NCBI RefSeq assembly: GCF_900130075.1
Contig: NZ_LT671418.1
Location: 744,001-808,000, forward strand
Source of the DNA: Herminiimonas arsenitoxidans
Lineage (GTDB): Bacteria; Pseudomonadota; Gammaproteobacteria; Burkholderiales; Burkholderiaceae_D
Direction: 5' to 3'
DNA length: 64,000 nt
Made by a program: the position numbers and the translations under genes. Shown here piece after piece: positions 8,216-26,864 of the stretch. Under the pieces are notes generated by a model. The model made no database searches, had not been told where the DNA came from, and saw only the letters and a program-made list of their open reading frames with translations. Within the stretch, counting starts at the first letter, position 1. Every line of letters begins with the position of its first letter.

Positions 8216-8230
8216 GCACTGCATAAGTAC

Positions 8231-8678: not shown

Positions 8679-8777
8679 GATCGCTCTCGGAATAATTGTC
8701 TTCAGACATCTGAAGGAAGACTGAATGTCTATCCGAATCAATTTTGCCACGAATGATGGCGATAGACGCTATTCGAA

Positions 8778-9377
8778 TCAAGCGTTACGTGTCAGCGGCA
8801 AGTTCGCAAGTACATAGAAGATTAGTTTTTCGGTGCTTACAGCCAACGTCTCACTGGCGCTGTTGACGACGCATTCTGCCTGTTCCGGCGCTTCATACGG
8901 CGCGCTGATGCCGGTGAATTCCTGTATCTGCCCTGCTCGTGCTTCCTTGTAGAGACCTTTGGGATCGCGCGTTTCGCAAGTAGCAAGATCAGCTGCGACA
9001 TGAATTTCATGGAAAGTCTGACGACAACACGCACGGGCACGCGCACGATCTGCGCGATATGGTGAGATGAAAGCTGCGATACAAATCAGACCCGCATCAG
9101 CAAACAAGGAAGCAACTTCACCCACACGCCGGATATTTTCCGTTCTACCTTCGTGACTAAAGCCAAGGTTGGCATTCAAGCCTCTGCGTACATTGTCGCC
9201 ATCAAGCACATAACAGGAATAACCGAGCTTGGTCAGCGCATGTTCAAGATTCATAGCCAGACTGGACTTGCCTGCGCCAGACAAGCCGGTCAGCCATAGC
9301 ACCGCACCTGCATGACCGTAATGCGCCTGGCGGTCTGCTGCGGTAAGCGTATGCGCGACTGTCGTGAGTTTATTCAC
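8778..9377 (-). CDS. cysC: Adenylylsulfate (APS) kinase
   Basis: The enzyme phosphorylates APS to PAPS, the donor for sulfotransferases. P-loop GLSGAGKSS lies at 31-39, the substrate loop DGDNVRRGLN at 59-68, and then ENIRRVGEV and FISPYRADR, which are diagnostic APS kinase motifs. The length of 199 is normal for a stand-alone kinase. Its start overlaps the end of the sulfotransferase gene by 8 nt, so translation is probably coupled and both products made together. No ATP sulfurylase or PAPS reductase gene is nearby, which points to sulfation rather than assimilation as its job here (inference). Confidence 0.93.
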   Translation of the reverse strand: MNKLTTVAHTLTAADRQAHYGHAGAVLWLTGLSGAGKSSLAMNLEHALTKLGYSCYVLDGDNVRRGLNANLGFSHEGRTENIRRVGEVASLFADAGLICIAAFISPYRADRARARACCRQTFHEIHVAADLATCETRDPKGLYKEARAGQIQEFTGISAPYEAPEQAECVVNSASETLAVSTEKLIFYVLANLPLTRNA

Positions 9378-11484
9378 TGTGTTCTATTTTCAATGCTGCC
9401 AATAATGGCGCAAGGTGAGCGGCATTTCTTTTCCAGCGCCCCTTTGATGTTTTATAGATAGGTTGGCGCACTTGATTAACGCTGGCAGTACGAACCACAC
9501 GACGGGTTTTGTGAAAGTCTAGACATGCTTCATCCCACGGCATGCCGACAAAATCAATCAAGCGCTTGGCCTCACCTTCCAGATCATCTACTACTGCTTC
9601 GTAATCCACTTCTATGAATCTATCGTCTGGCAGCACCTGACGCCAGTGATCCATCAGCGCTTGATACGCAAGATGGAATTGCCCCAATTCCGTCTGGTCG
9701 TAACTGAACAACTGTTCACCCGTGAAGTGTTTGCTGTAGCACGACAGACAAGTATCAACTGGATCACGTCGGCAATGGATAATGCGTGCACCCGGCAAGA
9801 TCAGCGGGATCAAACCGGCATAAAAGAAATTGGACGGCATCTTGTCGACCAGACGCTTTTTGCCGTTTGCCAGCTGTGTAATGTGCGCCAGATAATCGTG
9901 GCCGATCTGCGCCAAAACATCTGATGACGGATTCGCGACGCTTTCCGGAAAAGTACCTGCTTTCTCAATCGCCAAACGCAAAGCACTCAACTCGCCCGCA
10001 CCATGTATATGCGGATGTGAAGCAAGTATTTGCTCGACCAAAGTCGTACCAGAACGTGGCATGCCGATAATAAATACTGGCAATTCAGATGACACATCTA
10101 CGCCAGTGTGCTGAGCCAGCAAATCTGCATTAAAGGTAGCCGCAATGCGCTCCATCCATAGCTTTGTGACGGCAGCGTCGTAATTGAACGTGGACCGCTT
10201 CAAACGATTGCCTGCATCCAGATGATAAAAGGCTCGCGCCGAATTGCGCGTATCGAGATATGCCTTGCCGAGCGCAAAATGCACAGCCATACGATCCATC
10301 AGGGACAGACTATCGGCTTGTACTAACGACGCTTCCATCGTTGCAATATCCGGGTCGTTGGATAGATATATTTTGGTATCGTTGCGATTGGTCATGACGC
10401 GTATTGAGCCTGGGAACGCGAGCAAGGTCTGATCGAAAGCAGCAATCGCATCTTCCACACGACCGCTTTCCATGAACAGCGAAGCACGACTAACCAATGC
10501 CTCTTCCTTAACCGAACCCGGCAACACCGCAGCCTGATCAAATGCTGCCAGTGCTTCCTCATGTAGACCCAATGCCTGCAATACCAGTCCCAATGTGTTG
10601 TGCGCATTAGCGTTATCGGGAGCCAGCGCCAATGCTTGCCGTGCACAGATCAGCGCATCCTCATTGCGCTCCATCTTTTTCAAAAGCTGTGCGCGCGCCG
10701 TTAATGCGGCTACGTGCTGCGGTGCGAATGCGATCAAGGCATCCAGCGAGCGAAATGCCTCGGCATGACGCAAACGTGTAGTTTCCACATCAGCCAGATT
10801 CAGATAGGCATCGACCAGTTGCGGGTTGATCTCTATCGCTTGGCGTGCGGCAGCAGCAGCCTGATCGAACTGTCCCTGACTATTCAGTAAAAAAGCCATA
10901 TTGCTATGTGCTTCAGCATAGTTAGGCTTGAGCTCCAGTGCTTTTTTATAGTGCTCTTCGGCGCGTTCCAGACGGTTTAAGCGTCGATAGGTATTTGCCA
11001 GATTGTTGTGTGCGGTGGCTTCGTCCGGTGTCAGATTGACGACGCGCTGCAAGCATTCGAGACTGGCATCTAGCTTGCCGCTTTCCTGCAGAATGATACC
11101 CAGGTTATTCCATGCATCGACCAGATTAGGATTGAGTTTGATCGCCTGTTGTGCGGCCTGCTCCGCTTCTGCCAGCAGACCTTTTTGACGACAAATTTCG
11201 GCAAAGTTGCTGAAATAAACCGCCGGAGCAGTTTGTGCCGTGCAAGCCTGACGCAGATGGCTAACAGCCATATCCAGATGACCGTAGGCATGTGCAATCA
11301 GTCCCAGCAAATGCATGGCATCGGTCTGATAAGGCCATGCCAACAACACGTATTGGCATAGTTTTTCTGCCTCAGCAGCCTGCCCGTCATTCCAATGCGC
11401 ATAGGCACGATTCAAGGCTTCTGGAATACTCAACTGCGAAGTATGAGGAAAGTTTTTCCCGAAGCCGGTCATCGAAGGCATCAA
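9370..11484 (-). CDS. TPR-repeat sulfotransferase
   Basis: 704 residues. Residues ~20-370 are tandem tetratricopeptide repeats (recurring patterns such as DAWNNLGIILQESGKLDASL and AEAHSNMAFLLNSQGQFDQA). A sulfotransferase domain follows: PRSGTT at 476-481 is the 5'-phosphosulfate loop, and CRRDPVDTCLS near 571-581 is the 3'-phosphate-binding motif. TPR domains normally hold proteins, so a protein or peptide acceptor is likely. The ATG overlaps the TGA of the upstream autotransporter gene (ATGA, 4 nt), and the stop overlaps cysC, which would supply PAPS. No signal peptide is visible, so it should act in the cytoplasm before export. The acceptor is not known. Confidence 0.9.
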   Translation of the reverse strand: MMPSMTGFGKNFPHTSQLSIPEALNRAYAHWNDGQAAEAEKLCQYVLLAWPYQTDAMHLLGLIAHAYGHLDMAVSHLRQACTAQTAPAVYFSNFAEICRQKGLLAEAEQAAQQAIKLNPNLVDAWNNLGIILQESGKLDASLECLQRVVNLTPDEATAHNNLANTYRRLNRLERAEEHYKKALELKPNYAEAHSNMAFLLNSQGQFDQAAAAARQAIEINPQLVDAYLNLADVETTRLRHAEAFRSLDALIAFAPQHVAALTARAQLLKKMERNEDALICARQALALAPDNANAHNTLGLVLQALGLHEEALAAFDQAAVLPGSVKEEALVSRASLFMESGRVEDAIAAFDQTLLAFPGSIRVMTNRNDTKIYLSNDPDIATMEASLVQADSLSLMDRMAVHFALGKAYLDTRNSARAFYHLDAGNRLKRSTFNYDAAVTKLWMERIAATFNADLLAQHTGVDVSSELPVFIIGMPRSGTTLVEQILASHPHIHGAGELSALRLAIEKAGTFPESVANPSSDVLAQIGHDYLAHITQLANGKKRLVDKMPSNFFYAGLIPLILPGARIIHCRRDPVDTCLSCYSKHFTGEQLFSYDQTELGQFHLAYQALMDHWRQVLPDDRFIEVDYEAVVDDLEGEAKRLIDFVGMPWDEACLDFHKTRRVVRTASVNQVRQPIYKTSKGRWKRNAAHLAPLLAALKIEHSE

Positions 11485-14294
11485 AATCTCCAGCGCGCGA
11501 TCAGACTGCCCGTCTGAGAGGTATAAGCGCCGCCGGACTCCAGCGTGTAGTTGGTCGATAACGTCAAATTGTCATTGCGCAGCAGCGTCAGCCCCAAAGA
11601 CAACACAGCAGTATCCGAAACTGGCTTTGCTCCTGTGGTCACGAAGGTCGTCGCACCAGAAGTATCGGCCGCGAAGTTGGCAACCGATTGCAAACGCGTG
11701 TCGCTGTATTCATGTCGCCAAACTAGTTGCACCGTCGGCTTCAGCAAACCGTATGAGGTTTTGTATGTGCGCTCCAGCTTGGCACCCAGATCACTTTTCA
11801 GCGAATGCGTATCCGTGCCATCGACACGCAAAGCCGCGCCGTTGCCACCGGTCTCCGTATAGCCATCCATGCGCAAGCTACTGTATGTGAGGCCCGCAAG
11901 CGGCGTGACGATCATATCGTTCACATTGAACGGATAACCCGCCTGTACCGCAGCGATGTACTGCATGCCCTTATAGCTGCTGTTGGCAATGCCATTGAAA
12001 CCGGCAAAGTTAATCGCACGATGTGCATTTACATCGTTGCGCATCGCGCCAATAGACATGTTTAGATACCACGGCTTGCTTGTGTAACCGGCGTAAGCGG
12101 TCAAACCGTAGAAATCGACCTTGGCATAACTGCCAGTGTTATTGCCATCGTTAGATAGCGACGTGGTGGCATAACTAAACAGACCGCCAACGCGCCATTG
12201 ATCGTTTAGCGCTGTGTCTACGCCGAGCAGCAAGCCGCTGTAGCTGGCGTGATAACCGGAGATGCCATCGCGTCCCTTGTCCGATGCGCGACCGCCAAAG
12301 GCTTGCCCCCAAGCCGCACTCTCGCTGCTGCCATCACCACTGGATAAACCACTGCCACCAGTTGGCGCGGATGCAGTGTTGTTCAAGTGATCGAATGCGA
12401 TGGCGCTGACTTGGCGAGAAACCGTTGTAGATGAACCTGCAACGCCGGCAGCCATCGCCGACGGATCCAATTGCGAACCTGCACGATTGGCATCCTCTGG
12501 TGTATCAAGCGCCGCACCTGCATTAAACAAATTCATCAAGCCAGCATCAGTTCCGGTGTACTTGAACAAACCTTCTAGTGATGATCGTGCATTTGCATTG
12601 TTGGCTGGATTGATGACTTCACCGTCCAGCGTCAGTAGCAAACCAAGATTACTGCCATCGACAATAGTGCTGCCGGTGATATTTCCTCTGTAACCGTCTG
12701 CCTGATATTGCAATGTGCTTTCGTTGTAATTGCTACCGGCATTAGCAGCTTGAATAACCAGATAGCGCTGGCCGTTGGCGAATCGATAGCTGCCGTTCTT
12801 TTTCAAATCCACGCTTGAGCCGGCATCAATGACGGCAGCACCGGAAACAATCAGCCGCCCGTAACCGCTGTCGCTGATAGCGCCATTGGCAATCGCATTG
12901 CTGCCCACACCAATATTCAATGTTGCCGCCGCGCTTTGCTGGTAATTGCCAGTAATGTTGATCTGATTATTGAGTTGCAACACACCGGCCGAATTGATGA
13001 CCTTATTGGTACCAACATTAATGTTGTCATTCAACAGCAGATTGCCCCCGCCAAATACCCAATTGGAGTGTGTATTGCTAATCAGACCGATGGCGCCATT
13101 GAGGCCGGTTAATGTACCGAAAACAGAACCCGTACCGCCGGAGATAGTTTGCGCTCGCGTTGAATTGTTGATGATGTTGCCGGCTATCGTTCCAGAATTG
13201 ATGAGCGTCGTGATAGTCGCATTGCTGTCGATAACAATCGCATTGATCGCACTGATCATGCCGCTGTTATTCAAAGTCCCTATCGTTCCCTTTACATTAT
13301 GGATGGCAGTGATGCCGTTCGTATAGGCACCACCATTCACACTGGTAACAGCAGTGCTTAGATCGGTGATGGTACCGGCATTGTTCAGTGTGGTGATGAT
13401 GTTCTGGTTGATCAAGCCACCGCTGATCGTCCCATCGATACGATTATTCAGCGTCGTGATTTTCCCTCCATCATCGTTATATACACCAGCAACGCCACCA
13501 TCGATCAAGCCGCTATTATTCAGTTCTGTGATGACCGCAGTACTCGATGCCCTATAGTTGTAGACGCCGTTGAATTGACCGTAAATGGTTCCGCCGCTAT
13601 TGTTGTTGATGACATTAATCGTCCGATGATTATCGATACCATTACTATAGTAGCTGGTCGCACCCAGACTACTCGTCCCGCCACTAATAAGACCGCTATT
13701 GCTTATTGTTCCTATAGTGCGCGAGTTATAGATGGCTGCATTTAGGCTCCCGCCAGAAATGACAGCGCCGCTGTTATTGATCAGGGTATTGATGGTTCCT
13801 TCGTTATAGATGCCATTGAAGCCATTCGCGATGGTGCCTATTGTTCCACTGTTCGTCAGCGTTCTAACAAGGCTAGAACTGGAATAAATGCCGATACCAT
13901 GCGTGCTGCCGTTAATGGAACCACTGCTGGTATTGTTTATTTCTTCTATCGCATTTCCATCGACATAGACACCGAACCAGCTTCCGCTGAGTTGCCCGCT
14001 ATTGCTCAAGGTTCCAAGCGATGAGCCTCCGGCAATCACGCCTGTACTTCCGCCACTAATGGCAACGCCGGGATTAATCGCCAGATCACCGCCAGACCAT
14101 GTGTACGTCCCCGAGATCGAACCCGTAATCGGCGCATCCGCTTGCGCTGACGGCGCTGCCATCATGGACAAGGCGGCCGTGACGGCAAGACTTAATGGTT
14201 TCAGTTTCCATACGCCGGCAAACGTACGATGTCGCGCACGTTTCTTATCTGGCAAAAATTGACTGGTGCAATCGCGGAGAATGATTTGACTCAT
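11481..14294 (-). CDS. Autotransporter (type Va) with repeat passenger, paralogue 2
   Basis: 937 residues. An extended signal region (basic N-terminus, then a hydrophobic core LSLAVTAALSMMAAPSAQA ending near residue 53) is followed by a passenger of ~20-residue repeats of the form INNSGTIxG/LNNSGLI, expected to form a beta helix. The C-terminal ~280 residues are an autotransporter beta barrel ending in aromatic ARWRF, the usual outer-membrane assembly signal. The barrel and linker are near-copies of the neighbouring 1226-residue autotransporter, so the pair arose by duplication. AAGG precedes the start. Its stop is fused to the sulfotransferase start (ATGA), making it a candidate sulfation substrate (inference). 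Confidence 0.9.
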   Translation of the reverse strand: MSQIILRDCTSQFLPDKKRARHRTFAGVWKLKPLSLAVTAALSMMAAPSAQADAPITGSISGTYTWSGGDLAINPGVAISGGSTGVIAGGSSLGTLSNSGQLSGSWFGVYVDGNAIEEINNTSSGSINGSTHGIGIYSSSSLVRTLTNSGTIGTIANGFNGIYNEGTINTLINNSGAVISGGSLNAAIYNSRTIGTISNSGLISGGTSSLGATSYYSNGIDNHRTINVINNNSGGTIYGQFNGVYNYRASSTAVITELNNSGLIDGGVAGVYNDDGGKITTLNNRIDGTISGGLINQNIITTLNNAGTITDLSTAVTSVNGGAYTNGITAIHNVKGTIGTLNNSGMISAINAIVIDSNATITTLINSGTIAGNIINNSTRAQTISGGTGSVFGTLTGLNGAIGLISNTHSNWVFGGGNLLLNDNINVGTNKVINSAGVLQLNNQINITGNYQQSAAATLNIGVGSNAIANGAISDSGYGRLIVSGAAVIDAGSSVDLKKNGSYRFANGQRYLVIQAANAGSNYNESTLQYQADGYRGNITGSTIVDGSNLGLLLTLDGEVINPANNANARSSLEGLFKYTGTDAGLMNLFNAGAALDTPEDANRAGSQLDPSAMAAGVAGSSTTVSRQVSAIAFDHLNNTASAPTGGSGLSSGDGSSESAAWGQAFGGRASDKGRDGISGYHASYSGLLLGVDTALNDQWRVGGLFSYATTSLSNDGNNTGSYAKVDFYGLTAYAGYTSKPWYLNMSIGAMRNDVNAHRAINFAGFNGIANSSYKGMQYIAAVQAGYPFNVNDMIVTPLAGLTYSSLRMDGYTETGGNGAALRVDGTDTHSLKSDLGAKLERTYKTSYGLLKPTVQLVWRHEYSDTRLQSVANFAADTSGATTFVTTGAKPVSDTAVLSLGLTLLRNDNLTLSTNYTLESGGAYTSQTGSLIARWRF

Positions 14295-14318
14295 ATATAA
14301 CCTTGCTGAACTCGCGCC

Positions 14319-17300
14319 TTAGAAACGCCAACGCGCCATCAAGCTACCTGTCTGAGAGGTGTAACCACCACCTGATTCCAACGTGTAGTTAGTCGACAGC
14401 GTCAAATTTTCATTGCGCAGCAATATCAGACCCAAAGACAACACGCCGGTATTGGCGACAGGCTTGGCTCCTGCGGTCACGAAGGTCGTCGCACCAGATG
14501 TATCTGCCGCGAAATTGGCGACCGATTGCATGCGCGTATCGCTGTATTCATGACGCCACAGCAATTGCGCTGTCGGTTTCAACAAGCCGTACGAGGTCTT
14601 GTAATTGCGTTCCAACTTGACACCCAGATCGCTTTTTACTGAGTGCGTATCGGAGCTACCTACCTGCAAAGCGGCACCGTTGCCACCGGTTTCGGTATAA
14701 CCGTTTTGCTTCAGAGTGCTATAGGTCAAGCCAGCCAATGGCGTCAGCACCAGGCCAGGCAATACATGATCAAAGTTGAGTGGATAACCGGCTTGTGCTG
14801 CGGCGATGTAGTGCATGCCGTTGTAACTGCTATTGGCAATGCCATTGAAACCGCCAAAGTTCACTACACGATGTGCATTCACATCGCTGCGCATCGCGCC
14901 GACCGACATGTTGACGTACCACGGCTCGCCGGTATAACCGGCATACGCCGTCACACCATACGAATTGACGCGCGAGTAACTACCAGCGTTGTCGCCGTCG
15001 CTGGATACCGATGTGCTTGCATAGTTGAACAAGCCACCAGCACGCCATTGATTGTTCAGCTCTGTATCTGCACCAAGCAGCAAACCGCTGTAACTGGCGT
15101 GATAGCCGGAAACACCATCACGCGCATCAGCCGATGCACGACCACCAAAGGCTTGTCCCCAGAAAGCGTTATTGCTCATGCCGTCACCACCAGACAAGCC
15201 GCTGCCACCTTGTTGCGGTGCAGACGAACCACTGTCCAGACGATTGAATGCGATGGTGTTGACTTGTTGCGACACTGCCGTAGATGCACCGGCGACACCC
15301 GCTTTGCCGGAAGTTGGACTCAGTTGCGAACCGGCACGATTACCTTCTTCTGTTGAGCCGACAGCAGCAACTGCATTGAACAGATTCATCAAACCGGCAT
15401 CGGTACCGGTGTAATTAAAGAGACCGTTGAGCGTCGATTGCGCATTGCTGTTGGTCGCCTGATTGACTGTCCCGCCATCCAGTGTCAACACCAGATCCAG
15501 ATTGCTACCATCCACAACGCTACTGCCGCTCACTGTGCCATTGAAGCCGGTCGCTCCATAGCGCAAGGTACTTTCGTTGTAGTTGGTGCCAGCACTATCT
15601 GCCTGCACGACCAGATAGCGTTGACCATTGGCAAAACCGTAGCTGGTAACTTTTTTCAGCATCACGCTGGAACCGGCATCGATGATGGCATTGCCGGAGA
15701 CAATCAGACGACCGTAACCGAGGTCACTGCTGACGCCATTTGTTACGGCTCCGCCTGCCACACCTATGTTCAGTGTTGCAGCAGCATCCTGACGATAATC
15801 GCCTGTGATGTGGATTTGATTATTGACCTGCAGTACGCCGCCTATATTGGCGACGATATTGCCGTCGACATCGATGTTGTCATTGAGAAGTTGATTGCCG
15901 GATCCGAATACGACATTCCCGTTCTGATTGTTGATCTGACCGATATCTGCCACACCTTTTCCACCGCTGGAGCCAGTCAGCAAGCCGAAGGTCGAACCGC
16001 TGCCACCGTTGATGTAAAGATCTTGTGTAGAGAAATTACTGATGGTGCCGGCTATGGTGCCGCTATTGGTGAGGATGCCCAGCGTGCTGCTGCTATCGAG
16101 ATAAATTGCATCGACCGGCGATGTGATCAAACCACTATTGTTCAGCGTTCCTATATTGCCTTCGTTATATAAAGCATAGGCAGTTGTACTCGTGCTGGAG
16201 CCGGCGATCGTGCCTTTGTTGTCCAGGCTAATGATGGAACCGTTGGAATTATTGGAAATGCCATTTTGTATGACGCCGCCGATTTTATTATTCAGGGCAG
16301 AGATCAAACTACTGTTGCTGATGGCAGCTTGATTGTCGCCAATGATGGTACCGCTATTGTTCAATACCCCTATCGCCCCCCCGGACGTATTCATGATGCC
16401 GTTTGCAACGCCGTGAATCAGACCATTGTTTGTCAGTGTCGTGATCGTGCCTATATTGCCTATCCCTACCGCACCTTCCAAGGTGCCACTGCCGTTGTTG
16501 TTGATTGTAGTGATGGTGCCAGCATTGACAATGGCAGCGATATCGCTGCTGATCGTGCCGCTGTTGTTGAGCGTACCGATACTGCTGTTGAAGGCGTTAC
16601 TGATACCTGCTACGTTACCGCTACTACTCGTACCCCTGATCGTGCCACTATTAGTTAAGGTCCCTATCATTCCTGTGTATGTGGTTGCAGTGGTGCCGCT
16701 TCCTATCGTACCGCCATTGCTGATTCCTGTAGCACCGTGGATATCGCCACTATTGCTCACTGTTCCAATCAGACCGGCATTAAAGATGCCATCCGCCCAT
16801 GTGCTAGCAATGACGCCGCCTACCGTATTGTTCAGGGTCGTGATTTCGCTACCAGTGTTGTTGTAGATGGCAGCGCTGAACTCGCTACTGATGGTGCCAC
16901 TATTGGTCAGGGTACTGATGGTGCCGTCATAGTTAGCAATGCCGGAACCTCCCGCGCCAGCGATAGTGCCGCTATTGGTCAAATTGCCGATGTGTCCGCT
17001 GCGACTGACCATGCTTGTGCCAGAGCCGACAATGCCTCCATTTATCAAGCCAATCAGACCGCTGATGGTGCCTTGATTATTCAAGGTATTGATCGTGCCA
17101 ATATTAAAGACACTGTCTATCGTGCCGCTGGCTTTGTTTTCCAATACGGTAGTCGTGCCACCATTAGTCAGTGCCATTCCATAAGACGCGGAACTATTAA
17201 TCACACCGCTGTTTTCCAGCTTGCTGATAGTGCCGTCGTTTATGAAATCAGTGATCGTGCCATTGTTTGCATTTTCCAGACTACTGATAATACCGCTTGA

Positions 17301-17996
17301 TTGATTGTGGAAGCTTCCGATGACGCCTTGATTATTCAAGGTATTGATCGTCCCGATATTCAAGACACTATCTATCGTGCCACTGGCATTGTTTTCCAGT
17401 ACGGTAATCGTGCCGCCATTAGTCAGTGCCATTCCAGAAGGCGTAGAACTATTGATCACACCGCTGTTTTCCAGCTTGCTGATAGTGCCGTCGTTTATGA
17501 AATCAGTGATCGTGCCATTGTTTGTATTTTCCAGGCTACTGATAGCGCCGCCTGACTCATTGAGGAAGCTTCCGATGTTGCCGTCATTGAGTATGCCGCC
17601 AGCAATACCATTGATAATGCCGTCATTGCTGAATACATTAATCGTAGCGCTAAAATTGGCAATGCCATAGTAAGTACCGCCCAGAATATTGCCATTGTTA
17701 TGCAAGCGATTTATGTCGTTGGTGGTGGTGATGCCGCCATCTGCTCCATTGATCGTTCCATTATTCGTCAATATTCCCAGCACACCGCCGCCGTCACCAA
17801 ACACGGCGGTATCGCCTGCATCAGAGAATAATGAAACTCCAGCATTGACAGTAAAGTCGCCATCACTCCAATGCTGTGTCGCGTTTGTATTGGTAGAAAT
17901 AACAGTCTGTCCCAGCGTCACAGTCGGTGCCATTGCTGTCAGTGCTGTGGCTATCGCCAAACTGAGTGCTGTCCGTTGCGGTTGATTCATTTTCAT
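14319..17996 (-). CDS. Autotransporter (type Va) with repeat passenger, paralogue 1
   Basis: 1226 residues: signal peptide (TALSLAIATALTAMAPTVTLG), a ~700-residue passenger of short repeats (GTINTLNNQG, GTITDFINDG, ENSGVINSS), a linker starting GVLQVNNQIHITGDYRQ, and a C-terminal barrel ending ARWRF. The start is placed at 17996 because AGGGA sits 8 bases upstream; an in-frame ATG further out at 18053 has no ribosome site and overlaps the promoter-proximal gap. The passenger holds a nearly exact 85-residue tandem duplication (17071-17580). It lies 75 bp after tpsB and 24 bp before the second autotransporter on the same strand. Likely an adhesin or aggregation factor (inference). Confidence 0.9.
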   Translation of the reverse strand: MKMNQPQRTALSLAIATALTAMAPTVTLGQTVISTNTNATQHWSDGDFTVNAGVSLFSDAGDTAVFGDGGGVLGILTNNGTINGADGGITTTNDINRLHNNGNILGGTYYGIANFSATINVFSNDGIINGIAGGILNDGNIGSFLNESGGAISSLENTNNGTITDFINDGTISKLENSGVINSSTPSGMALTNGGTITVLENNASGTIDSVLNIGTINTLNNQGVIGSFHNQSSGIISSLENANNGTITDFINDGTISKLENSGVINSSASYGMALTNGGTTTVLENKASGTIDSVFNIGTINTLNNQGTISGLIGLINGGIVGSGTSMVSRSGHIGNLTNSGTIAGAGGSGIANYDGTISTLTNSGTISSEFSAAIYNNTGSEITTLNNTVGGVIASTWADGIFNAGLIGTVSNSGDIHGATGISNGGTIGSGTTATTYTGMIGTLTNSGTIRGTSSSGNVAGISNAFNSSIGTLNNSGTISSDIAAIVNAGTITTINNNGSGTLEGAVGIGNIGTITTLTNNGLIHGVANGIMNTSGGAIGVLNNSGTIIGDNQAAISNSSLISALNNKIGGVIQNGISNNSNGSIISLDNKGTIAGSSTSTTAYALYNEGNIGTLNNSGLITSPVDAIYLDSSSTLGILTNSGTIAGTISNFSTQDLYINGGSGSTFGLLTGSSGGKGVADIGQINNQNGNVVFGSGNQLLNDNIDVDGNIVANIGGVLQVNNQIHITGDYRQDAAATLNIGVAGGAVTNGVSSDLGYGRLIVSGNAIIDAGSSVMLKKVTSYGFANGQRYLVVQADSAGTNYNESTLRYGATGFNGTVSGSSVVDGSNLDLVLTLDGGTVNQATNSNAQSTLNGLFNYTGTDAGLMNLFNAVAAVGSTEEGNRAGSQLSPTSGKAGVAGASTAVSQQVNTIAFNRLDSGSSAPQQGGSGLSGGDGMSNNAFWGQAFGGRASADARDGVSGYHASYSGLLLGADTELNNQWRAGGLFNYASTSVSSDGDNAGSYSRVNSYGVTAYAGYTGEPWYVNMSVGAMRSDVNAHRVVNFGGFNGIANSSYNGMHYIAAAQAGYPLNFDHVLPGLVLTPLAGLTYSTLKQNGYTETGGNGAALQVGSSDTHSVKSDLGVKLERNYKTSYGLLKPTAQLLWRHEYSDTRMQSVANFAADTSGATTFVTAGAKPVANTGVLSLGLILLRNENLTLSTNYTLESGGGYTSQTGSLMARWRF
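17071..17580 (-). repeat. 255-bp tandem duplication inside an autotransporter passenger
   Basis: Two copies, ~17071-17325 and ~17326-17580, match at most positions with a period of 255 bp (85 codons); for example CCTTGATTAT begins at 17071 and 17326, and AAGCTTCCGATG at 17311 and 17566. The duplication is in frame and keeps the repeat register of the passenger. Confidence 0.85.
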
Positions 17997-18071
17997 TTTC
18001 TTATCCCTGATTTTGTGAGTAGTGCGCGTCGTCTCTCTCAATGCCGACGTCAAATAGTTTTTATATTTTTC

Positions 18072-19763
18072 TTAAAATCCGATGCTGGCTTGTACCCACA
18101 ATGTCGGCGTATGCACAGCCGATTGCGGTATGGAAATCGGATCTTCATTACTGGTGCGCCAGGCGAGAGACGCCTTGATCTGGACATTGGAGAACAACGC
18201 ATTCAAACCGATACCTGCGCCAGCCAATGCGCGCGTGTTCGGTGCTGCGGGTCCAAAAGGTGTGTGATTTATTTTTACTGAGCCGGTGTCGTAGAACAAT
18301 GTGCCTTGCAAGGCCGCGTTGAAGTTATGACGAAGTTCAACAGTAGCCAACACGCCTTCATCACCTATGCCTTCACCTTGTGGATAAGCACGCACACCGG
18401 TGGCACCGCCCAATGCGAATTTTTCGGAAGAATCCAGGTTCTTGCTTGCCTCCTGGCCATACACCGTGACATACAAGGTGTTGCTATCGTTCAGTCGTTG
18501 TAGTCGTGCAAGGTTGTAAGACACGCGCGCATAACTGCCATTAGTTTTGGCCGATGCCTTATCGATGATCAGTGCGGATGGTGACTTGATATCCAATTGA
18601 CCGAATACTGCTGACAAACTCATGCTGTTGATGCCGCCACCAGCGAAAGCATCTTGTCGCGTGCCGTAGAGTCCAGCCGTCATCAACTTCGCACTCTTGT
18701 CGGTTGTTGTCAGCGTCGCATCGACGCTATCGCTCAGTTTCTTTTGTTCCCAACTCAAGGTGCCGTTCAGATTCGCGAGTTGACTACGGATGAATGGGTA
18801 AGCTGCAAAGACGCTGGTGCTGCTGGCTGTGCCATGTGCATTCAATGATTTGAATTCCTTGCCGAGCTCATAGCGCGTTTCAAAATACGCTGCGCCTATA
18901 CGCAAGCCGTCGCTGCCAACCGGCAACTGATAAGCGACACGTCCGTAGTTCAGCCCATCACCGCTAGTCAATACATTGGCCGTCAATACGTCACCGATCT
19001 TGAGCGGGCTGTTGACGTTGAGCGTGCCGCTCAGACGATACTCACCGACATAACGATTGCCGTAGTTATCGAAATCCACGCTACCGTTATATGCCGCGCC
19101 CTGTTCTAACTGCACGACCAGATCCGATGTGCCGACACTGGCACCCGGCTGCAAGGTTGCGCGTGCATTGCTGACGCCAGGCGTGTCGTTCAACAACAGC
19201 AAACCTCTATCGATACGATCAGAACGTATCGTTTCGCCATCGGGCACCTGATTCAGATACGCCGCCGCACGTTCATCCGAAAGTCGCGATTGGTTTTTCA
19301 GTTGATGCGCAGAGATGCGCCCTTCAACGATGGCTATCGTGACGGTGCCATTTTTGATTTCCTGTGCAGGTAAATAGGCACGTGCAACGGGATAACCCTG
19401 TTCGCGGTAATACGCCGTGATACGCGCTGTGGCAGCGTTCAAATCTTTCAAGGTGCGCGAACTACCTTCCAGATCAGCCACCAGCGACTGCAGCGTTGCG
19501 GTCGGAATCACTGTGTTGCCACTGATCAGAATCGTCTTGACGTCAAAGCTTGTTTCATCCCCGACTGCTGCACTCAATGCACGTTCTTCCACCTCGACAG
19601 AAGGACCTGCCTTGGGAGCGGTCAGTTCTGGCTGTTGCTGCAATTCACGGAGGATCTGCCCGGCATTAGGTGGTGTTTGCGCAGAACTGGTGACGCTATG
19701 CAGCAGCGTTAATGTCAGTGCACACAAGAGCGGTGATTTATTGCAACGAGCAGAGAACGTCAT
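18072..19763 (-). CDS. TpsB outer-membrane transporter (ShlB/FhaC/HecB family)
   Basis: 563 residues. A signal peptide (LLCALTLTLLHSVTSSAQ, cleaved near 29) precedes two POTRA-like domains (~70-220, including VKTILISGNTVIP and AYYREQGYPVARAYLPAQEIKNGTV), then a 16-strand barrel. The conserved L6 loop motif appears as GATGVRAYPQGEGIGDEG, and the chain ends in a phenylalanine (VQASIGF). It exports the TpsA partner encoded 64 bp upstream on the same strand. The start is the ATG at 19763; the ribosome site is weak, perhaps because of coupling to tpsA translation. I give no family-member symbol because specificity cannot be read. Confidence 0.93.
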   Translation of the reverse strand: MTFSARCNKSPLLCALTLTLLHSVTSSAQTPPNAGQILRELQQQPELTAPKAGPSVEVEERALSAAVGDETSFDVKTILISGNTVIPTATLQSLVADLEGSSRTLKDLNAATARITAYYREQGYPVARAYLPAQEIKNGTVTIAIVEGRISAHQLKNQSRLSDERAAAYLNQVPDGETIRSDRIDRGLLLLNDTPGVSNARATLQPGASVGTSDLVVQLEQGAAYNGSVDFDNYGNRYVGEYRLSGTLNVNSPLKIGDVLTANVLTSGDGLNYGRVAYQLPVGSDGLRIGAAYFETRYELGKEFKSLNAHGTASSTSVFAAYPFIRSQLANLNGTLSWEQKKLSDSVDATLTTTDKSAKLMTAGLYGTRQDAFAGGGINSMSLSAVFGQLDIKSPSALIIDKASAKTNGSYARVSYNLARLQRLNDSNTLYVTVYGQEASKNLDSSEKFALGGATGVRAYPQGEGIGDEGVLATVELRHNFNAALQGTLFYDTGSVKINHTPFGPAAPNTRALAGAGIGLNALFSNVQIKASLAWRTSNEDPISIPQSAVHTPTLWVQASIGF

Positions 19764-19827
19764 AAGGTCGGGCTAACTGAAAAATGAAATAAATGAGAAA
19801 GAAAAATTTCCTGGCAATCTGTGTTTA

Positions 19828-22800
19828 CTAACAGCCCGCGCCGCTCGGCATTTGCATGCCGCAGCCAGTGAAGTTCAGACGTGGCGTAATTTGCGACGCA
19901 TCAGCGGCTTGCTTGCCCTTTTCCTGCGCAGCCATCAGAGCAAGCTGCATCTCCTTGCTCTTGTCGGATTTATCGAGACCGCTGCTGACAGCATTGATCG
20001 CAGAGTTATAAGCAGATTCCAATGTGGAGCCACCTAACGCCGCGCTACTTTGACTGACAGGATTGATGACGAGCGCACCATTAACGAAAGTCATCGTGTA
20101 ATTGCTACTACTCAATCCATTTGCCGTGATCGTGTAATTGCCGATGCCAGTCGCACCCTGCGCCGTGCCGCCGTAATTAAGGGAACCGAACAGATCGGCT
20201 ATCGTTTCGCCATTGACGAAGCCAGCAATCGTGCTGCCGTTACCACCGCCATAAGCAATACCGTCATAGAACTTGTTGGCGGAATTGGCCGTAACGATCA
20301 GCGATGCCGGTGTGATATTTGCTGAGGTACTAGCAACATTGGAGATCAGGTTGTAGTTACCCGCATCGGTGCCACTCAGAATGATGTTGTTGACGTCGAC
20401 AGTCTTGTTGTTGCCAACGTTCTTGTCGTTGAAGCTCGCATTACCAGTAAAGTTCAATACATCACCGGTAATACGATCATCGTTGTACGTGACCGATGCA
20501 TTCGTCAGACCGTTATAAATCTTGTCGATGCCGTTAGCTGTGACGTTCAGATCTGCTTTATTGATCGTGCTGCTGGTGTTATCGACATAGCTGATGTTGT
20601 AGTTGCCAGTCATGTCAGCGCCACCAGCATCTTCAATGGTTACTCCACTGGCGCGTACGGTTTTGCCAGAGCCGGCATTCTTGTCGAGGAACGTCTGACT
20701 TCCGTTAGCACTCACCGAGTCACCCACGCCGGCCAGCGTATCCGCTATGCCGCTACCGCTTGCATTCAGCGTACCGTCATAGGTTTTGACTACCTGTTGC
20801 GCGGTGACGATCAGGTCAGCTTTATTGATCGTGCTGCTGGTGTTATCGACATAGCTGATGTTGTAGTTGCCAGTCATGTCAGCGCCACCAACATCTTCGA
20901 TGGTTACTCCGTTGGCACGTACCGCCTTGTTGTCACCAGCGTTCTTGTCGAGGAAAGTCTGGCTGCCCGTCGAGGCGACCGTGTCGCCCAGGCCAGCCAG
21001 CGTGCCGGCAATGCCGTTGCCGGCGGCATTCAATGTGCCGTCATAGGTTTTGCTCGTCTGCTGTGCGGTAACAGTCAGGTCGGCCTTGCTGATTGTGCTA
21101 GCGACATCATCGACATACGTGATGTTGTAGTTGGCGCTGACGTTGGTACCGCCCGCGTCCTTGATCGTGACTGCTGCGGCGCTAACGGTTTTGTTGTCGC
21201 CAGCATTCTTGTCGAGATAGGATTGACTGCCACCCGTCAGAATAGATTCGCCAGCTGCAGCGCCTGCTAATGCACCAACGACGGCATTGCCTGCGCTCGT
21301 CGTGCCGTCATAGACCTTAGTAGTTTGCTGCGCAGTGACCGTCAAATCTGCTTTGCTGATCGTCAGGCTGGCATCTGCATAGCTGATGTCGTAACCCTGC
21401 TGGCCGGAATACAGTCCTGACTGTGTCAGTGTGCTGTTTGCCGTGCTGTAGCTACCGACGTTCTTCGAGTCGCTGGTATAGATCAGGCCGCCATCCAGCA
21501 CCGCTCCGTTGACATCGGTGGTGTAGCCGCTTGAGGTGTTGGTCGAGCCGTCGTAGGTCTTGCCGCTTGCATCGCCAGTGACCGTGACCGCTGTGAGGAA
21601 GGAACGTAACAACGGTCCGCTCTGTCCTTCATAGATGCGCCAGATCGTGCCAGTGCCGCCAGTTGCGTCTATATCCCAACCTGCGTTGGCAAAGGTCGCT
21701 TTCTGACTCGCAAGCGTATTATTAATAGCGCTGATTCCGTTGGCACCGCTGCTTCCGCCACCGAAGTCGCCGACGGCTATCCCGTTACCAGATGTTTGAG
21801 AGTTCCACAGTGCGTTGTAAATACTCCAACCGTTATAACCGGCCACCCCACCAAGAATTCCAGCAAGACCACGCACTTTGCCAGTGGCATATACATAGCT
21901 GATCGTGCCTGCACTGTTATAACCAACGATCCCACCTGCGTAACCGTTCTGCTGCGCCGTGACGTCGCCTGTTGCATAGGCATTGGTAACAGAACCATAA
22001 TCGCTGATACTACCTATCAGGCCACCCGCATTACCGCTTTGCCCGCCGATTACATCGCCCGTCGCATAGGCGTTGCTGACAACACCCAGACTGTGGTGAT
22101 CACCGATCAAGCCGCCGGCATTACCGCTTGCCTGCCCCGTCACGTCGCCGATTGCGTAAACACGTTCTATCGTACCCAGCGTGTTGTAGCCGATCAAACC
22201 GCCCGCATTGTAGCCAGTCACTACACCAGTCGCATAAGCGTCGCGGATATTGCCGCTGTTTGTTCCTACAAGACCGCCAGCGTTGGTATCGCCGGTAACG
22301 ACACCCTTCGCATAAACGGAATTAAGATCACCAAAGACGTTCTCCCCGATCAAGCCGCCTGCAACACGACCGGTAACGTTGCCGATCGCATTGGCATTAC
22401 TGATGGTTGCCCCGTTGTTGTAACCGATCAAACCACCGGCATTACCATCTTGTGGTCCGCTCACGTTGCCGCTTGCATAGACATCATTGATCGTACCGGA
22501 GTTATAGCCGACCAAACCACCTGCATGACCGTCCGACACACCGCTGCTGTTACTGACGGTACTGCCGTTTACATCGCCAGTGGCATAGGAGCCGGAGATA
22601 TTTCCCCCGGCTTCGCCGACCAGTCCGCCGACTATGTAACCTTTAACATCACCGGTAGCATAGGACGTATTGATAGATGAAAAACTTTTGCCAACCAATC
22701 CGCCCGTGTAATACCCCGTCACTGCGCCTTCGGCATGGGAACCAGTGATACTTGCAGAGCTCTGACCCACAAGGCCGCCCGCAAAGCCTTCACGCTGACC

Positions 22801-25800
22801 AGTCACCACACCGGTGGCGTAGGAGTTGCTGATATTTCCATCGCTCTGGCCCACCAGCCCGCCGGTATAACCGGTCTGATCCAACATCGTGTCATTACCG
22901 ATTACTGTACCGGTCGCATGGGAGCCAGTAATCGTGCTGGAACTGTAGCCAACGAGGCCACCTGCGTAATATCCTGTCACGGTACCAGTACCGCTCGTAT
23001 AAGAATCGGTGATTTGTCCAGAACTGCTCCCGACCAAACCGCCAGCGTAGTAACCGGTCACATTACCGGTTGCATACGAGCCCGTGATGCGTCGACTATT
23101 CTTGCCAATCAAGCCACCGGCATAGTCGTGAATATCATCGCCACCAGTGACGTTACCTTTGGCGTATGAATCTGTAATGAGACCTGAGTTATTACCGATC
23201 AAACCACCGGCATACTGCGATGCCTGTCCATTCACATCACCTGTTGCGTACGATCTTGTGATATCGCCGCCATTCAAACCGATCAGGCCGCCAACATAAC
23301 CACCGAATACAACATCCTGCAACCCGGTTACGTTTCCACTTGCATGCGAGTCTGTGATGTTGGCATTGTTGCTGCCTACCAGACCGCCGGCGTAAGCACC
23401 CGCAACCCTACCCGTTGCATAGGCATTGCTGATGTCGCCCCAGTTCTCTCCGACCAGACCACCTGCGTAATAACCGTTTGCCTTTCCTGCTGCGTGGACA
23501 TTGGTGAGCGTGCCTTCGTTGTAGCCAATCAGACCACCGGCTGAACCCACGTCAAAATCGGCATTGACGTCGCCGCTTGCGTAAGCGTTCTCGATCGTGC
23601 TGCCGCTGCTGTTGTAGCCGACCAGACCGCCGACATTTTGGCCGTTAAGAGTATCGGTACCCATGACATTGCCCGTTGCATAGGCATTGCTGATGTTGCC
23701 CCTGTTTTCACCGACCAGACCGCCTGCATTGCCGCTATCGCCCCGCACATTGCCCGAAGCGGACACAGTGTCGAGGACGCCACCGTTGTTGTAGCCGATC
23801 AACCCGCCGACGTCGTAGTTGCCGAGGACGGTAGCGCCCGCATGGACATTGTCTACCGTGCCGCCATTCAGACTGCCGGCCAGGCCGCCGACATAGTCGT
23901 GACCGGAGATACTGCCACCGACCAGACTGACGTCGCGAATCGCGCTGCCAATGACGGAACGAAACAAACCGACATAATCCATTGTCGGCATATTGATCGT
24001 CAGATTGCTGATGACGTGATTCTGCCCATCGAAGGAACCAGTGAACTCCCAGCCGTAAAGGTTACCGACAGGAGCGAAGCCTTGCGTACTCCACATGCCG
24101 CTCGCATTGCTGCCGTTGGTTGCACTCGCATCGATATCATTCGCCAGCGTGTAATTGGCCGTTACATTCAGTCCCATCAACTGCAACTGATGCGCGTTTT
24201 TTATCGAAGTCGAATACTCGCTATACAAAAATGGGCGTGTTGATCCTTCAAACATGACCCATGTCTGGCCACTGCTGTCAGTTGCTACCCACGCACCGCC
24301 GAATACCTGATTCCACGTGCCAAGATTGGCATAGCTGGAGCGACTGTAGGCACTGCTGCCCGAGATCATGGTGGCATTGACCGAAGAACCACTGGCAATA
24401 CCACCCGCGGCGCTGGATTGAGCAGTTGTTACGCCATCCCAGTAACTGTTGACGACTGCGCCGCTGCGAGCGTTATAACCAATCAGTCCTCCAGAAAGCG
24501 TATCGCCTGTCACCTTGCCTGTCGCATAGGCATGGTCGATGACCCCTTCGTTATAACCAACCAATCCGCCGTTATACATAAAGCCTGTGACTTTTCCGGT
24601 TGAATATGCATTGGAAATACTGCTTCCAGCAGCGTTATTTCCGACCAGACCACCGACAGTGCCGTTGGAAGTGGCCGTCACATTACCTGTTGCATACACA
24701 TTGCTCACCGCGCCACGGTTGCTGCCTACCAGGCCACCAACATACAGCGTCCCGGTAACGGCACCGGTGGCATAGGAATTTTTAATATTGCCCTCATTGG
24801 ATCCTGCCAATCCACCTACATCGATCGAAGTATTTCCATTCGGAAGATCGCTGCCCTTCACCGCACCGGTGGCATAGGAGTTACTGATACTCACACCATT
24901 ATTGAGAGAACCAACCAGTCCACCCACGCTTGAATGCCCGCTCACGAGGAGTGTCGAATACGTATTGGAGATCGTACTGTTCAACACCACGCCAACCAGC
25001 GCACCAACGGAATCCTTTCCTTTAACGCTCCCGTCGACGAGGCCTACATTACGAATGGTTGCGCCCACGGCGGAGCCAAACAAGCCGACGCTACTTTGGG
25101 TCGATTGGTTGATGGTCAGGTTACGAATGACATGCCCCAGACCGTCAAAAACACCGCCGAAAGTTCCAATCGGGTTGAAACCACCAATCCAGTCTCTGGC
25201 AATGAATGCATCAATATCGCTGCCAAGAACATAATTGCCCGTCAGATTGCCGTTGATGCCTTGCAGGTCGGTGCCGGTCCCGCTGCCAGCATTCCCTAGA
25301 TCCGTGATGACCTGGTATTGGACCGTATTGCCGTCGCTACCGAGTTTTGTGCTGAAGTTGTTGCCCGCCTTCAGGTTGATCGGTGCATTGACGTTGTAGT
25401 TGGCGGTATTGCCCGCATTGACTGCGCCTTGTCCATACGCCAGCGCCAGCTTGCCGTTGGCGCTCTGCGCGGTAATGCTTTGATTGATATTGATGTTGCG
25501 TTCGGCGTTGAGCGTCAGTGTCGTTGCTGCATTCCACGTCACGGCATCGTTGACGTTGATGTCGCCGTTGCCACCCGCCGTACCCATCGTCGCAGTTTGA
25601 ATTTCAAAGTCAGTGTTGTTCAACGTAGCAGACACATCGGCGCCGGTCATGTCGCCACCGCTAGCCGCAATCGTGAAGTCGTTGGGATCGATCAGCCATT
25701 TGCCGGTCTTGCCATTGGCGGCCTTCGTCGTGACCTTGGTACCTGTCGCAACCTTGACGTGAGCTGCTGATGTTTCGACAAAGCCGCCGTCGCCACCGGT

Positions 25801-26748
25801 CGGTGCAGACGCATCCAACGTGCCGCCGACGTTAACCGTGCCGACTTCCATATCGCCCATCAGCATGATGCGACCGTTGCGATTCTCTACCGTCTTCGCT
25901 TCGATGATGCCGGTGTTGTTCACAACGGCAGTCGTCAGATTATTCAGCGCCTTGGCCGACATCAAGACTTGTCCGCCATTCGCCTGTATCAGTTGCTTGT
26001 TCTCGGCCAGCGCATTCAATGCGCCATGATCTATGCTGTAGCCGAGCAGGCTACCGTTGTTGATATTGAGCGTGACCTTGTTACCGGCGGCCAGCAATGC
26101 AGTACCCAGACGTGCATTGATATTGCCTTCATTGCGTACCGTACCGGCGATCAGCGCGACATAGCCGCCATCTGCGGCATTGATCGTTCCTTTATTGATC
26201 ACACTGCCATTGGCATTGCCGTCCAGCGCAAAGACCATGCGTCCTGCTGCCAGATCCGCATTGCTCATGCTCAGCGTAGACGCAACAAGACCACCGACAT
26301 TCACCTGCGCACCGGCACCGAACAAGACGCCATTCGGATTCAGGATGAAGACTTGTCCATTTGCCGTCAGGCTGCCGAGCAAAGTACTGGGGCTGGAGCC
26401 GGTGATGCGGTTCAGTGCAATCGCAGCAGAGTTGGGTTGATTGAAGATCAGCGCTTCATTCGCAGCCGTCGATAAACCGACCCAGTCAATCGCGATGTTC
26501 TGCGTATGCTGATTGATGGTGGTGGTATTGCCGACCGTATTGACGTTACCGTTACCGAGAGTAACTGTCGCATCGGCCGCGCTGGCAGCATAGGCAAATG
26601 GTGTGAACAATGCTCCACCTGACAATACCAGTGCACTGACACTTAACTTGCGCGCGCCGATTGCCTTACCGTGTGCTTTCGCATTTTCTGCAACGGCAAT
26701 CCAGGCATTGGCTAACTGGCTCCAGACTAGTCGGTAGATATGGTTCAT
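19828..26748 (-). CDS. Giant TpsA exoprotein with GLUG and YDG/MBG repeats and C-terminal cysteine pair
   Basis: 2306 residues, secreted by the two-partner route. An ESPR-type extended signal (MNHIYRLVWSQLANAWIAVAE) leads to cleavage near residue 55. The TPS/haemagglutination-activity domain follows, with NPNG at 137-140. Then come about thirty GLUG-type repeats (GGLVGxN...SYATGxVTG), four YDG domains (VTAQQTxKxYDGT, period 88-89 residues) and MBG-like domains. The chain ends CGMQMPSGAGC. On reading I saw no cysteine except these two (2296 and 2306), as in cysteine-hook TpsA adhesins such as HMW1 and CdrA. Start 26748 is chosen for AGGGA 7 bases upstream; ATG 26778 is rejected. Confidence 0.93.
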   Translation of the reverse strand: MNHIYRLVWSQLANAWIAVAENAKAHGKAIGARKLSVSALVLSGGALFTPFAYAASAADATVTLGNGNVNTVGNTTTINQHTQNIAIDWVGLSTAANEALIFNQPNSAAIALNRITGSSPSTLLGSLTANGQVFILNPNGVLFGAGAQVNVGGLVASTLSMSNADLAAGRMVFALDGNANGSVINKGTINAADGGYVALIAGTVRNEGNINARLGTALLAAGNKVTLNINNGSLLGYSIDHGALNALAENKQLIQANGGQVLMSAKALNNLTTAVVNNTGIIEAKTVENRNGRIMLMGDMEVGTVNVGGTLDASAPTGGDGGFVETSAAHVKVATGTKVTTKAANGKTGKWLIDPNDFTIAASGGDMTGADVSATLNNTDFEIQTATMGTAGGNGDINVNDAVTWNAATTLTLNAERNININQSITAQSANGKLALAYGQGAVNAGNTANYNVNAPINLKAGNNFSTKLGSDGNTVQYQVITDLGNAGSGTGTDLQGINGNLTGNYVLGSDIDAFIARDWIGGFNPIGTFGGVFDGLGHVIRNLTINQSTQSSVGLFGSAVGATIRNVGLVDGSVKGKDSVGALVGVVLNSTISNTYSTLLVSGHSSVGGLVGSLNNGVSISNSYATGAVKGSDLPNGNTSIDVGGLAGSNEGNIKNSYATGAVTGTLYVGGLVGSNRGAVSNVYATGNVTATSNGTVGGLVGNNAAGSSISNAYSTGKVTGFMYNGGLVGYNEGVIDHAYATGKVTGDTLSGGLIGYNARSGAVVNSYWDGVTTAQSSAAGGIASGSSVNATMISGSSAYSRSSYANLGTWNQVFGGAWVATDSSGQTWVMFEGSTRPFLYSEYSTSIKNAHQLQLMGLNVTANYTLANDIDASATNGSNASGMWSTQGFAPVGNLYGWEFTGSFDGQNHVISNLTINMPTMDYVGLFRSVIGSAIRDVSLVGGSISGHDYVGGLAGSLNGGTVDNVHAGATVLGNYDVGGLIGYNNGGVLDTVSASGNVRGDSGNAGGLVGENRGNISNAYATGNVMGTDTLNGQNVGGLVGYNSSGSTIENAYASGDVNADFDVGSAGGLIGYNEGTLTNVHAAGKANGYYAGGLVGENWGDISNAYATGRVAGAYAGGLVGSNNANITDSHASGNVTGLQDVVFGGYVGGLIGLNGGDITRSYATGDVNGQASQYAGGLIGNNSGLITDSYAKGNVTGGDDIHDYAGGLIGKNSRRITGSYATGNVTGYYAGGLVGSSSGQITDSYTSGTGTVTGYYAGGLVGYSSSTITGSHATGTVIGNDTMLDQTGYTGGLVGQSDGNISNSYATGVVTGQREGFAGGLVGQSSASITGSHAEGAVTGYYTGGLVGKSFSSINTSYATGDVKGYIVGGLVGEAGGNISGSYATGDVNGSTVSNSSGVSDGHAGGLVGYNSGTINDVYASGNVSGPQDGNAGGLIGYNNGATISNANAIGNVTGRVAGGLIGENVFGDLNSVYAKGVVTGDTNAGGLVGTNSGNIRDAYATGVVTGYNAGGLIGYNTLGTIERVYAIGDVTGQASGNAGGLIGDHHSLGVVSNAYATGDVIGGQSGNAGGLIGSISDYGSVTNAYATGDVTAQQNGYAGGIVGYNSAGTISYVYATGKVRGLAGILGGVAGYNGWSIYNALWNSQTSGNGIAVGDFGGGSSGANGISAINNTLASQKATFANAGWDIDATGGTGTIWRIYEGQSGPLLRSFLTAVTVTGDASGKTYDGSTNTSSGYTTDVNGAVLDGGLIYTSDSKNVGSYSTANSTLTQSGLYSGQQGYDISYADASLTISKADLTVTAQQTTKVYDGTTSAGNAVVGALAGAAAGESILTGGSQSYLDKNAGDNKTVSAAAVTIKDAGGTNVSANYNITYVDDVASTISKADLTVTAQQTSKTYDGTLNAAGNGIAGTLAGLGDTVASTGSQTFLDKNAGDNKAVRANGVTIEDVGGADMTGNYNISYVDNTSSTINKADLIVTAQQVVKTYDGTLNASGSGIADTLAGVGDSVSANGSQTFLDKNAGSGKTVRASGVTIEDAGGADMTGNYNISYVDNTSSTINKADLNVTANGIDKIYNGLTNASVTYNDDRITGDVLNFTGNASFNDKNVGNNKTVDVNNIILSGTDAGNYNLISNVASTSANITPASLIVTANSANKFYDGIAYGGGNGSTIAGFVNGETIADLFGSLNYGGTAQGATGIGNYTITANGLSSSNYTMTFVNGALVINPVSQSSAALGGSTLESAYNSAINAVSSGLDKSDKSKEMQLALMAAQEKGKQAADASQITPRLNFTGCGMQMPSGAGC
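20560..21360 (-). repeat. Tandem YDG-domain coding repeats, period ~264 bp
   Basis: The same coding segment recurs with 264-bp spacing (a shared GAT position at 20563, 20827 and 21091, and 267 bp further at 21358). The two copies nearest the C-terminus are almost identical in DNA, suggesting recent expansion or gene conversion inside the exoprotein gene. Confidence 0.75.
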
Positions 26749-26864
26749 TTTGCTATTCCCTGTCAACGGCCGGAGCATGCTTCGGCAACAAAATCCAAAG
26801 CGTTACGCCGCCCTTCCTCGCCAAGCCACGTGCGCTTTTATGGTATTTTTAAGTGCCATGACTA

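Follow-up and report, generated by a model that had tools for sequence, protein, structure and literature searches.

A tetratricopeptide repeat sulfotransferase encoded beside autotransporters in Herminiimonas arsenitoxidans and its relatives: a predicted module for sulfation before export

The 64,000-nucleotide stretch of Herminiimonas arsenitoxidans DNA analysed here (contig NZ_LT671418.1, positions 744,001 to 808,000; hereafter the window) carries on its minus strand the gene of a sulfotransferase with tetratricopeptide repeats (TPR), which we call ST (9370..11484 of the window). It lies between the gene of a classical autotransporter, AT1 (11481..14294), and that of a predicted adenosine 5'-phosphosulfate (APS) kinase, CysC (8778..9377). 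A second autotransporter gene, AT2 (14319..18053), precedes AT1. Comparison across genomes revealed that the link between ST and an autotransporter is conserved and specific to this ST subfamily. Before the autotransporter passengers are exported, ST probably sulfates them in the cytoplasm with 3'-phosphoadenosine 5'-phosphosulfate (PAPS) that CysC is predicted to supply. The locus is best read as a dedicated cytoplasmic sulfation module for autotransporter passengers, which in most relatives perhaps performs glyco-sulfation.

Linkage of the sulfotransferase to autotransporters

Loci for the comparison were chosen by ST alone. Twenty aligned ST homologues (A1) served as the query against GTDB contigs, and the best 80 of 362 relatives were kept, which yielded 79 loci. 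Together with the window this made 80 loci, 62 of which were testable (at least 2 kb upstream and at least 2.5 kb downstream of ST), and 18 were dropped. Neighbouring genes were called by profile searches over all open reading frames (ORFs); a greedy choice of ORFs lost the ST gene to overlapping frames in 11 loci. Of the 62 testable loci, 52 had an autotransporter barrel or an AT1-like passenger at most 1.5 kb away from ST, 46 of them the barrel proper. Its position was upstream on the same strand in 37 loci (27 of them with a gap of at most 200 bp), upstream on the opposite strand in 8 and downstream in 7. Anywhere in the stretch, such a gene was present in 57/62. The 52 linked loci represent 22 of 29 genus labels, 16 of these being named genera, from the alpha-, beta- and gammaproteobacteria. 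A passenger-like match is not always an autotransporter: the 1642-aa protein at 4764-9692 of locus L071 ends in a PEP-CTERM motif and gave no barrel match. Such a protein might be a substrate of the same kind that is anchored differently. The order AT2-AT1-ST-CysC is also kept in the sister genome G001, whose locus (L116) lies outside the 80.

The control consisted of 31 lower-scoring TPR-sulfotransferases from the same phylum. Such proteins are common, with a match at E 1e-60 in 148 of 398 phylum genomes. From these, 40 places were taken, namely 31 below 500 bits and 9 of the 11 above; the window and G082 (locus L117) make up the remaining two of the 11. None of the 31 control genes had an adjacent autotransporter, and a single one had an autotransporter within its 20-kb stretch (L222, 3 kb away). 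For adjacency, 52/62 versus 0/31 corresponds to a Fisher p of 2.5e-16, relatedness being ignored. A further five, distant TPR-sulfotransferases of relatives (L121 to L125) had no autotransporter in their stretches either. Clear type V neighbours were seen at 6 of the 11 places above 500 bits (the window, G460, G082, G387, G446 and G225), and in G268 an ESPR match stayed barely below the cut-off (24.8 vs 25). No type V neighbour was seen beside the ST of G260, nor beside those of G362, G242 and G326, where the stretch ends no more than about 0.5 kb upstream (G362, G242) or about 0.4 kb downstream (G326) of ST. Around all these places, TpsA and TpsB of two-partner secretion were detected with weak profiles made from one or two sequences. 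The window genome, a single contig of 3.78 Mb, contains 12 autotransporter matches, and 29 of the 60 genomes searched contain none. Thus, autotransporters are not abundant enough to explain the linkage.

The frequency of TPR-sulfotransferases in the phylum and the 31 controls indicate that the fold itself has no general tie to type V secretion, and the ST domain has weaker relatives among polyketide and carbohydrate sulfotransferases. ST might therefore act on lipopolysaccharide, capsule or a small molecule, the autotransporter being a neighbour that shares its regulation only. We consider this improbable, because the autotransporter link is specific to this subfamily and extends over many genera and to either side of ST. 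Moreover, a scan of genes next to the unit, covering part of the window, found no glycan-assembly gene.

The sulfotransferase and its predicted PAPS supply

ST comprises 704 aa from the listed TTG and matched TPR families as well as PF13469 (Sulfotransfer_3; 160.3 bits, cut-off 27). Its motifs, PRSGTT at residue 476 and RDPVDTCLS at residue 573, place it in this PAPS-dependent sulfotransferase family. The query and its 120 best hits among those listed, 121 aligned sequences in all, share the residues R477, E498, R573 and S581. The roles of the Arg, the Ser and the Glu/His base in the 5'-phosphosulfate and 3'-phosphate binding motifs follow the accessible part of PMC6637879. At E 0.001, ST was the only Sulfotransfer_3 match in the window genome. 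Its nearest named homologues come from Herminiimonas glaciei and Janthinobacterium sp. Marseille.

When the PDB was searched with a profile of the ST domain (A3), seven protein-tyrosine sulfotransferase (TPST) sequences came out on top (E 2.6e-14 to 1e-11). Polyketide-synthase sulfotransferases (2.9e-9 and 5e-6) ranked next, and matches to heparan sulfate 3-O-sulfotransferases reached 1.3e-3. By this profile, TPST is thus the closest relative in sequence among solved structures. For the TPR part, O-GlcNAc transferase (OGT) was the first match apart from one engineered repeat protein. An AlphaFold model of ST was confident (pLDDT 87.8). A fold search with the whole model returned TPR proteins throughout the matches listed, so that the ST domain was assigned from sequence profiles and not from a structure match. 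ST is best read, from these profiles, as a TPST-like sulfotransferase head on an OGT-like TPR superhelix.

CysC (199 aa) was identified as an APS kinase by PF01583 (219.6 bits), by the apsK equivalog TIGR00455 (233.9 bits, cut-off 138.7) and by the P-loop GLSGAGKS at residue 31. A full-length APS kinase scoring above 200 bits was present in both genus genomes with a close ST (the window genome and G001), whereas the other 11 have none at that score (Fisher 0.013 over 13 genomes, a value that carries shared ancestry). Most of the 11 showed only partial P-loop matches. The CysH of the window genome contains the cysteine pairs KECC and GCEPC, which we take to be marks of APS reductases. In the 3.5 kb read, its neighbours are presumably a CysD-like gene on one side and a sulfite-reductase-like gene on the other, as named from sequence. 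A search of the whole window genome placed no APS kinase at the CysH locus. Given that the APS kinase occurs together with ST in this genus and that CysH resembles an APS reductase, CysC looks dedicated to the supply of PAPS for sulfation.

From these components we infer a flow of PAPS, a substrate, an acceptor group and a timing. ATP sulfurylase, which makes APS in the established pathway, would feed the module with APS; CysD-like and APS-reductase-type CysH genes lie elsewhere in the window genome. The local CysC would convert APS to PAPS, a compound that the genus seems not to need for assimilation. The OGT-like superhelix would hold the repeat passenger while it is still unfolded, and sulfate transfer would fall to the TPST-like domain. 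In this genus the acceptor would most likely be a side-chain hydroxyl, because the glycosyltransferase of most relatives was not found here. Finally, the passenger would leave the cell via Sec and its own barrel.

Several observations weigh against this assignment. No activity or sulfated product is known for the module. Ten of the 62 testable loci have no passenger within 1.5 kb of ST, and five have none in the whole stretch (L044, L060, L072, L084 and L088). In the genome of a second sister species, G004, the autotransporter pair (67% identity to AT1, 59% to AT2) occurs with no ST beside it and no close ST elsewhere in the genome; hence that pair can persist in the absence of ST. The single ST sequence of the window, used as query, ranked the polyketide-synthase sulfotransferase 4gox first (1.2e-5), with tyrosine enzymes from 8e-5. 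CysC lies within 6 kb of ST in only 21/62 testable loci, and the window genome contains a second APS-kinase-like gene (G000:C1:109439-109876, 127.5 bits). In the passengers G, T, S, A and N are frequent, whereas K, R, D and E are scarce, so that acidic residues are few; Tyr makes up 2.4%, with neither enrichment nor a Tyr signal. The ST-less pair of G004 retains 14/15 and 12/12 of the Tyr residues common to the ST-bearing species. Passenger composition, tyrosine contexts and a comparison of three species (ST-bearing versus ST-less relatives) did not identify the acceptor.

Glycosyltransferases, TpsA/TpsB and known modification systems

A glycosyltransferase (GT) with TPR and a GT9/TibC fold is present in 48 of the 62 testable loci and is fused to ST in some of them. 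Since the window genus lacks it, the original prediction, made from the window alone, could not see this frequent third partner. Structure search gave the TibC/GT9 (GT-B) fold among the matches listed. The GTs of L037 and L060 have N-terminal TPRs and gave no match to TIGR04414 at E 0.001, so that their likeness to the bacterial autotransporter heptosyltransferases (TibC/AAH) consists in the GT-B fold only. In G387 the TIGR04414 matches fall on other contigs than its fused ST-GT. The same genome carries the fullest version of the module seen. In one row (L195/L255, G387:C4:1-40000) it encodes a YDG/MBG protein, HMW1C, a peptidyl-prolyl isomerase (PPIase), a fused ST-GT-ST, a hydrolase, CysC and two glycosyltransferases. 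A 5540-aa frame with an ESPR signal and a barrel match belongs to the same row.

Because a GT is present in so many loci, a glycan has to be taken seriously as the site of sulfation in place of the protein chain. ST would then sulfate a sugar first attached to the autotransporter by the cytoplasmic GT, and in the window genus the sugar enzyme would be encoded elsewhere. We judge this rather unlikely. The 14 loci without GT are scattered over the ST tree (about 11 changes), and 12 of them retain the autotransporter. The window genome gave no match with a single GT, with the GT alignment (A2) or with TIGR04414, nor did G001 and G004 with the latter two, both of which matched in control genomes. 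G001, equipped with ST and CysC, also lacks an HMW1C-type match. In the window genome one HMW1C-type glycosyltransferase match was found (G000:C1:1556782-1557033 and 1558181-1558741), about 1 kb from a TpsB match and away from the ST row.

Upstream of AT2, on the same strand, lie the genes of the transporter TpsB (18072..19763) and of its exoprotein TpsA (preferably 19828..26748). The original prediction had likened the row to the HMW adhesin loci and counted both among the members of the unit. This part did not hold for the genus, and TpsA/TpsB were rejected as core members of the sulfation unit. In G001, ST is found at 0.59 Mb and a 78%-identical TpsB some 1.2 Mb away at 1.83 Mb, beside TpsA homologues. 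In G004, a 78%-identical TpsB is located on contig C12 and the autotransporter pair on C20. Because these relatives lie away from the ST and autotransporter loci, TpsA and TpsB are neighbours in the window and not part of a conserved unit. TPS-domain and TpsB profiles, weak ones each grown from one window sequence, matched none of the other 79 loci.

That TpsA is the main substrate, after the comparison with HMW1, is accordingly quite improbable. The same strand and the gaps of 64 and 75 bp would fit such a role. So would two distant STs that adjoin TpsA-type proteins. L117 stands beside a 2363-aa protein of this type (ESPR, GLUG, YDG and MBG; no TPS-domain match at E 0.001), which is followed by TpsB, and L195 beside the YDG/MBG protein followed by HMW1C. 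The separation of TpsB from ST in G001 and from the autotransporter pair in G004, a genome without a close ST, speaks against it, as do the unmatched profiles. The wider proposal that ST modifies surface proteins before export is partly supported, by the autotransporter link and by the APS kinase that tracks ST in this genus, but not in its TpsA/TpsB part.

Modification of type V proteins in the cytoplasm by dedicated enzymes before export is known, and the accessible part of a 2021 review of type V folding distinguishes two glycosylation classes, HMW1C-like and TibC-like (PMC8151025). The words sulfation, sulfated and sulfotransferase do not occur in it. The original prediction knew of no sulfated type V adhesin, and full-text searches of the open-licence literature, judged by titles and the starts of abstracts, likewise revealed neither a sulfated type V protein nor such a TPR-sulfotransferase system. 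HMW1A/HMW1B/HMW1C and EtpABC are type Vb adhesin systems with a dedicated cytoplasmic N-glycosyltransferase, according to the parts seen of PMC8151025 and PMC2877744. As in these systems, a modifying enzyme predicted to be cytoplasmic and dedicated is encoded beside a type V exoprotein, and in the relative L195 HMW1C even shares a row with the fused ST-GT-ST. However, the predicted chemistry is sulfation, and the conserved partner is a classical autotransporter instead of TpsA/TpsB. TibA/TibC and AIDA-I/AAH are autotransporters with dodecameric heptosyltransferases, as described in the portion available of PMC4358343. They resemble the module in that a repeat-passenger autotransporter stands beside its own cytoplasmic transferase, and the GT of the relatives shares the TibC/GT9 fold. 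In contrast, ST is not a glycosyltransferase, and the GTs of L037 and L060 differ by their N-terminal TPRs and the missing TIGR04414 match.

The RaxST of Xanthomonas, which works with RaxX and RaxAB, is a sulfotransferase for an exported polypeptide that uses PAPS and was modelled on TPST2 (PMC6637879, in part). ST, if it acts as predicted, would share the kind of substrate and the donor. Unlike the type V proteins here, RaxX is a small peptide exported by type I secretion with PAPS from core genes, and the accessible part of PMC6637879 mentions no TPR domain. In the row of the window, type V genes occupy the position of a RaxX-type peptide and a type I exporter. TPST1 and TPST2 were first among solved structures for the ST-domain profile, and OGT has the TPR superhelix, whereas in ST both parts are found on one bacterial chain. 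TPST acts in the Golgi (PMC9372746, in part).

Dedicated modification of type V proteins is thus known, and the novelty predicted here is the sulfate chemistry; sulfate decoration would be new for this secretion class. On balance, we slightly favour a third, undescribed class of cytoplasmic type V modification, by sulfation or glyco-sulfation, that extends over the alpha-, beta- and gammaproteobacteria. It would combine an OGT-like TPR groove with a TPST-like head, in places fused with a TibC-fold GT and in part of the loci equipped with its own PAPS kinase, and would put an anionic sulfate coat on autotransporter adhesins before export. As the gene order recurs, the module is directly testable, for example in Herbaspirillum, Paraburkholderia, Pseudomonas, Nitrospirillum and Sphingomonas.

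Gene row and neighbouring genes

ORFs, translations, Pfam and NCBIfam confirmed the six genes of the original prediction in their order (TpsA, TpsB, AT2, AT1, ST, CysC), all on the minus strand. The motifs named in it, P-loop, APS-kinase, PRSGTT, RDPxDxxxS and TPRs, were recovered as well. TpsA is listed as 19828-26778 (2316 aa from the first ATG) and has ESPR, TPS, GLUG, YDG and MBG domains. The ATG at 26748, opening an ESPR-type signal (MNHIYRLVW), is the more likely start. TpsB comprises 563 aa and matched PF03865 and PF08479; beside the PF05860 exoprotein this identifies a two-partner secretion pair. AT2 has 1244 aa from the listed TTG, and its start is more likely the ATG at 17996. AT1 (937 aa) has a passenger of repeats rich in Asn, Ser, Thr and Gly and adjoins ST. 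Both are classical autotransporters (type Va), with a C-terminal PF03797 barrel behind a repeat passenger, and both are putative substrates. For ST, the ATG at 11481 is the more likely start.

With the ATG starts of TpsA and AT2, the predicted spacing was reproduced. The gaps are 64 bp (TpsA/TpsB), 75 bp (TpsB/AT2) and 24 bp (AT2/AT1). If ST starts at the listed TTG, its overlap with AT1 amounts to 4 nt; if it starts at the ATG directly behind, the two genes have TGATG in common. The ST/CysC overlap is 8 nt (gtgaataa). The whole-protein Pfam scores were far above their cut-offs (APS_kinase and Sulfotransfer_3 as given above, the former against 21.1; Autotransporter 210.4 for AT1 and 201.1 for AT2 against 26; TPS 121.2 against 33.5; ShlB 84.9 against 22.7). 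Consequently, the row is not a product of chance.

Rfam and tRNA scans of the window gave no matches. Scans for promoters (12 sites, shuffle mean 19.9) and terminators (23, shuffle mean 17.3) were not used as evidence. Beyond TpsA and transcribed away from the row, genes for a NarL-type response regulator and a histidine kinase lie on the plus strand at 26944-29629; they are possible regulators of the row.

The second APS-kinase-like gene of the window genome (L126) clusters with PEP-utilizer, methyltransferase and CDP-glycerol-transferase-type genes. An APS-kinase fragment with an internal stop (G006:C24:120995-121237) was seen in a congener that has no close ST; a TpsB relative (115189-116832) lies about 4 kb away. 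Near ST, a lipoprotein-like alpha/beta hydrolase (Hydrolase_4; L039:12067-12906 and relatives) was seen in 39/62 loci and an IalB-family protein (PF06776; L060:9479-9970 and relatives) in 11/62, the latter alphaproteobacterial by titles. In Herbaspirillum sp. alder98 two STs flank two autotransporters (L046), and the same genome yields the further ST-autotransporter loci L052 and L062. Finally, five long and one short ORF matching TPR-sulfotransferase follow each other on one strand in L201 (G136:C42:1-20000).

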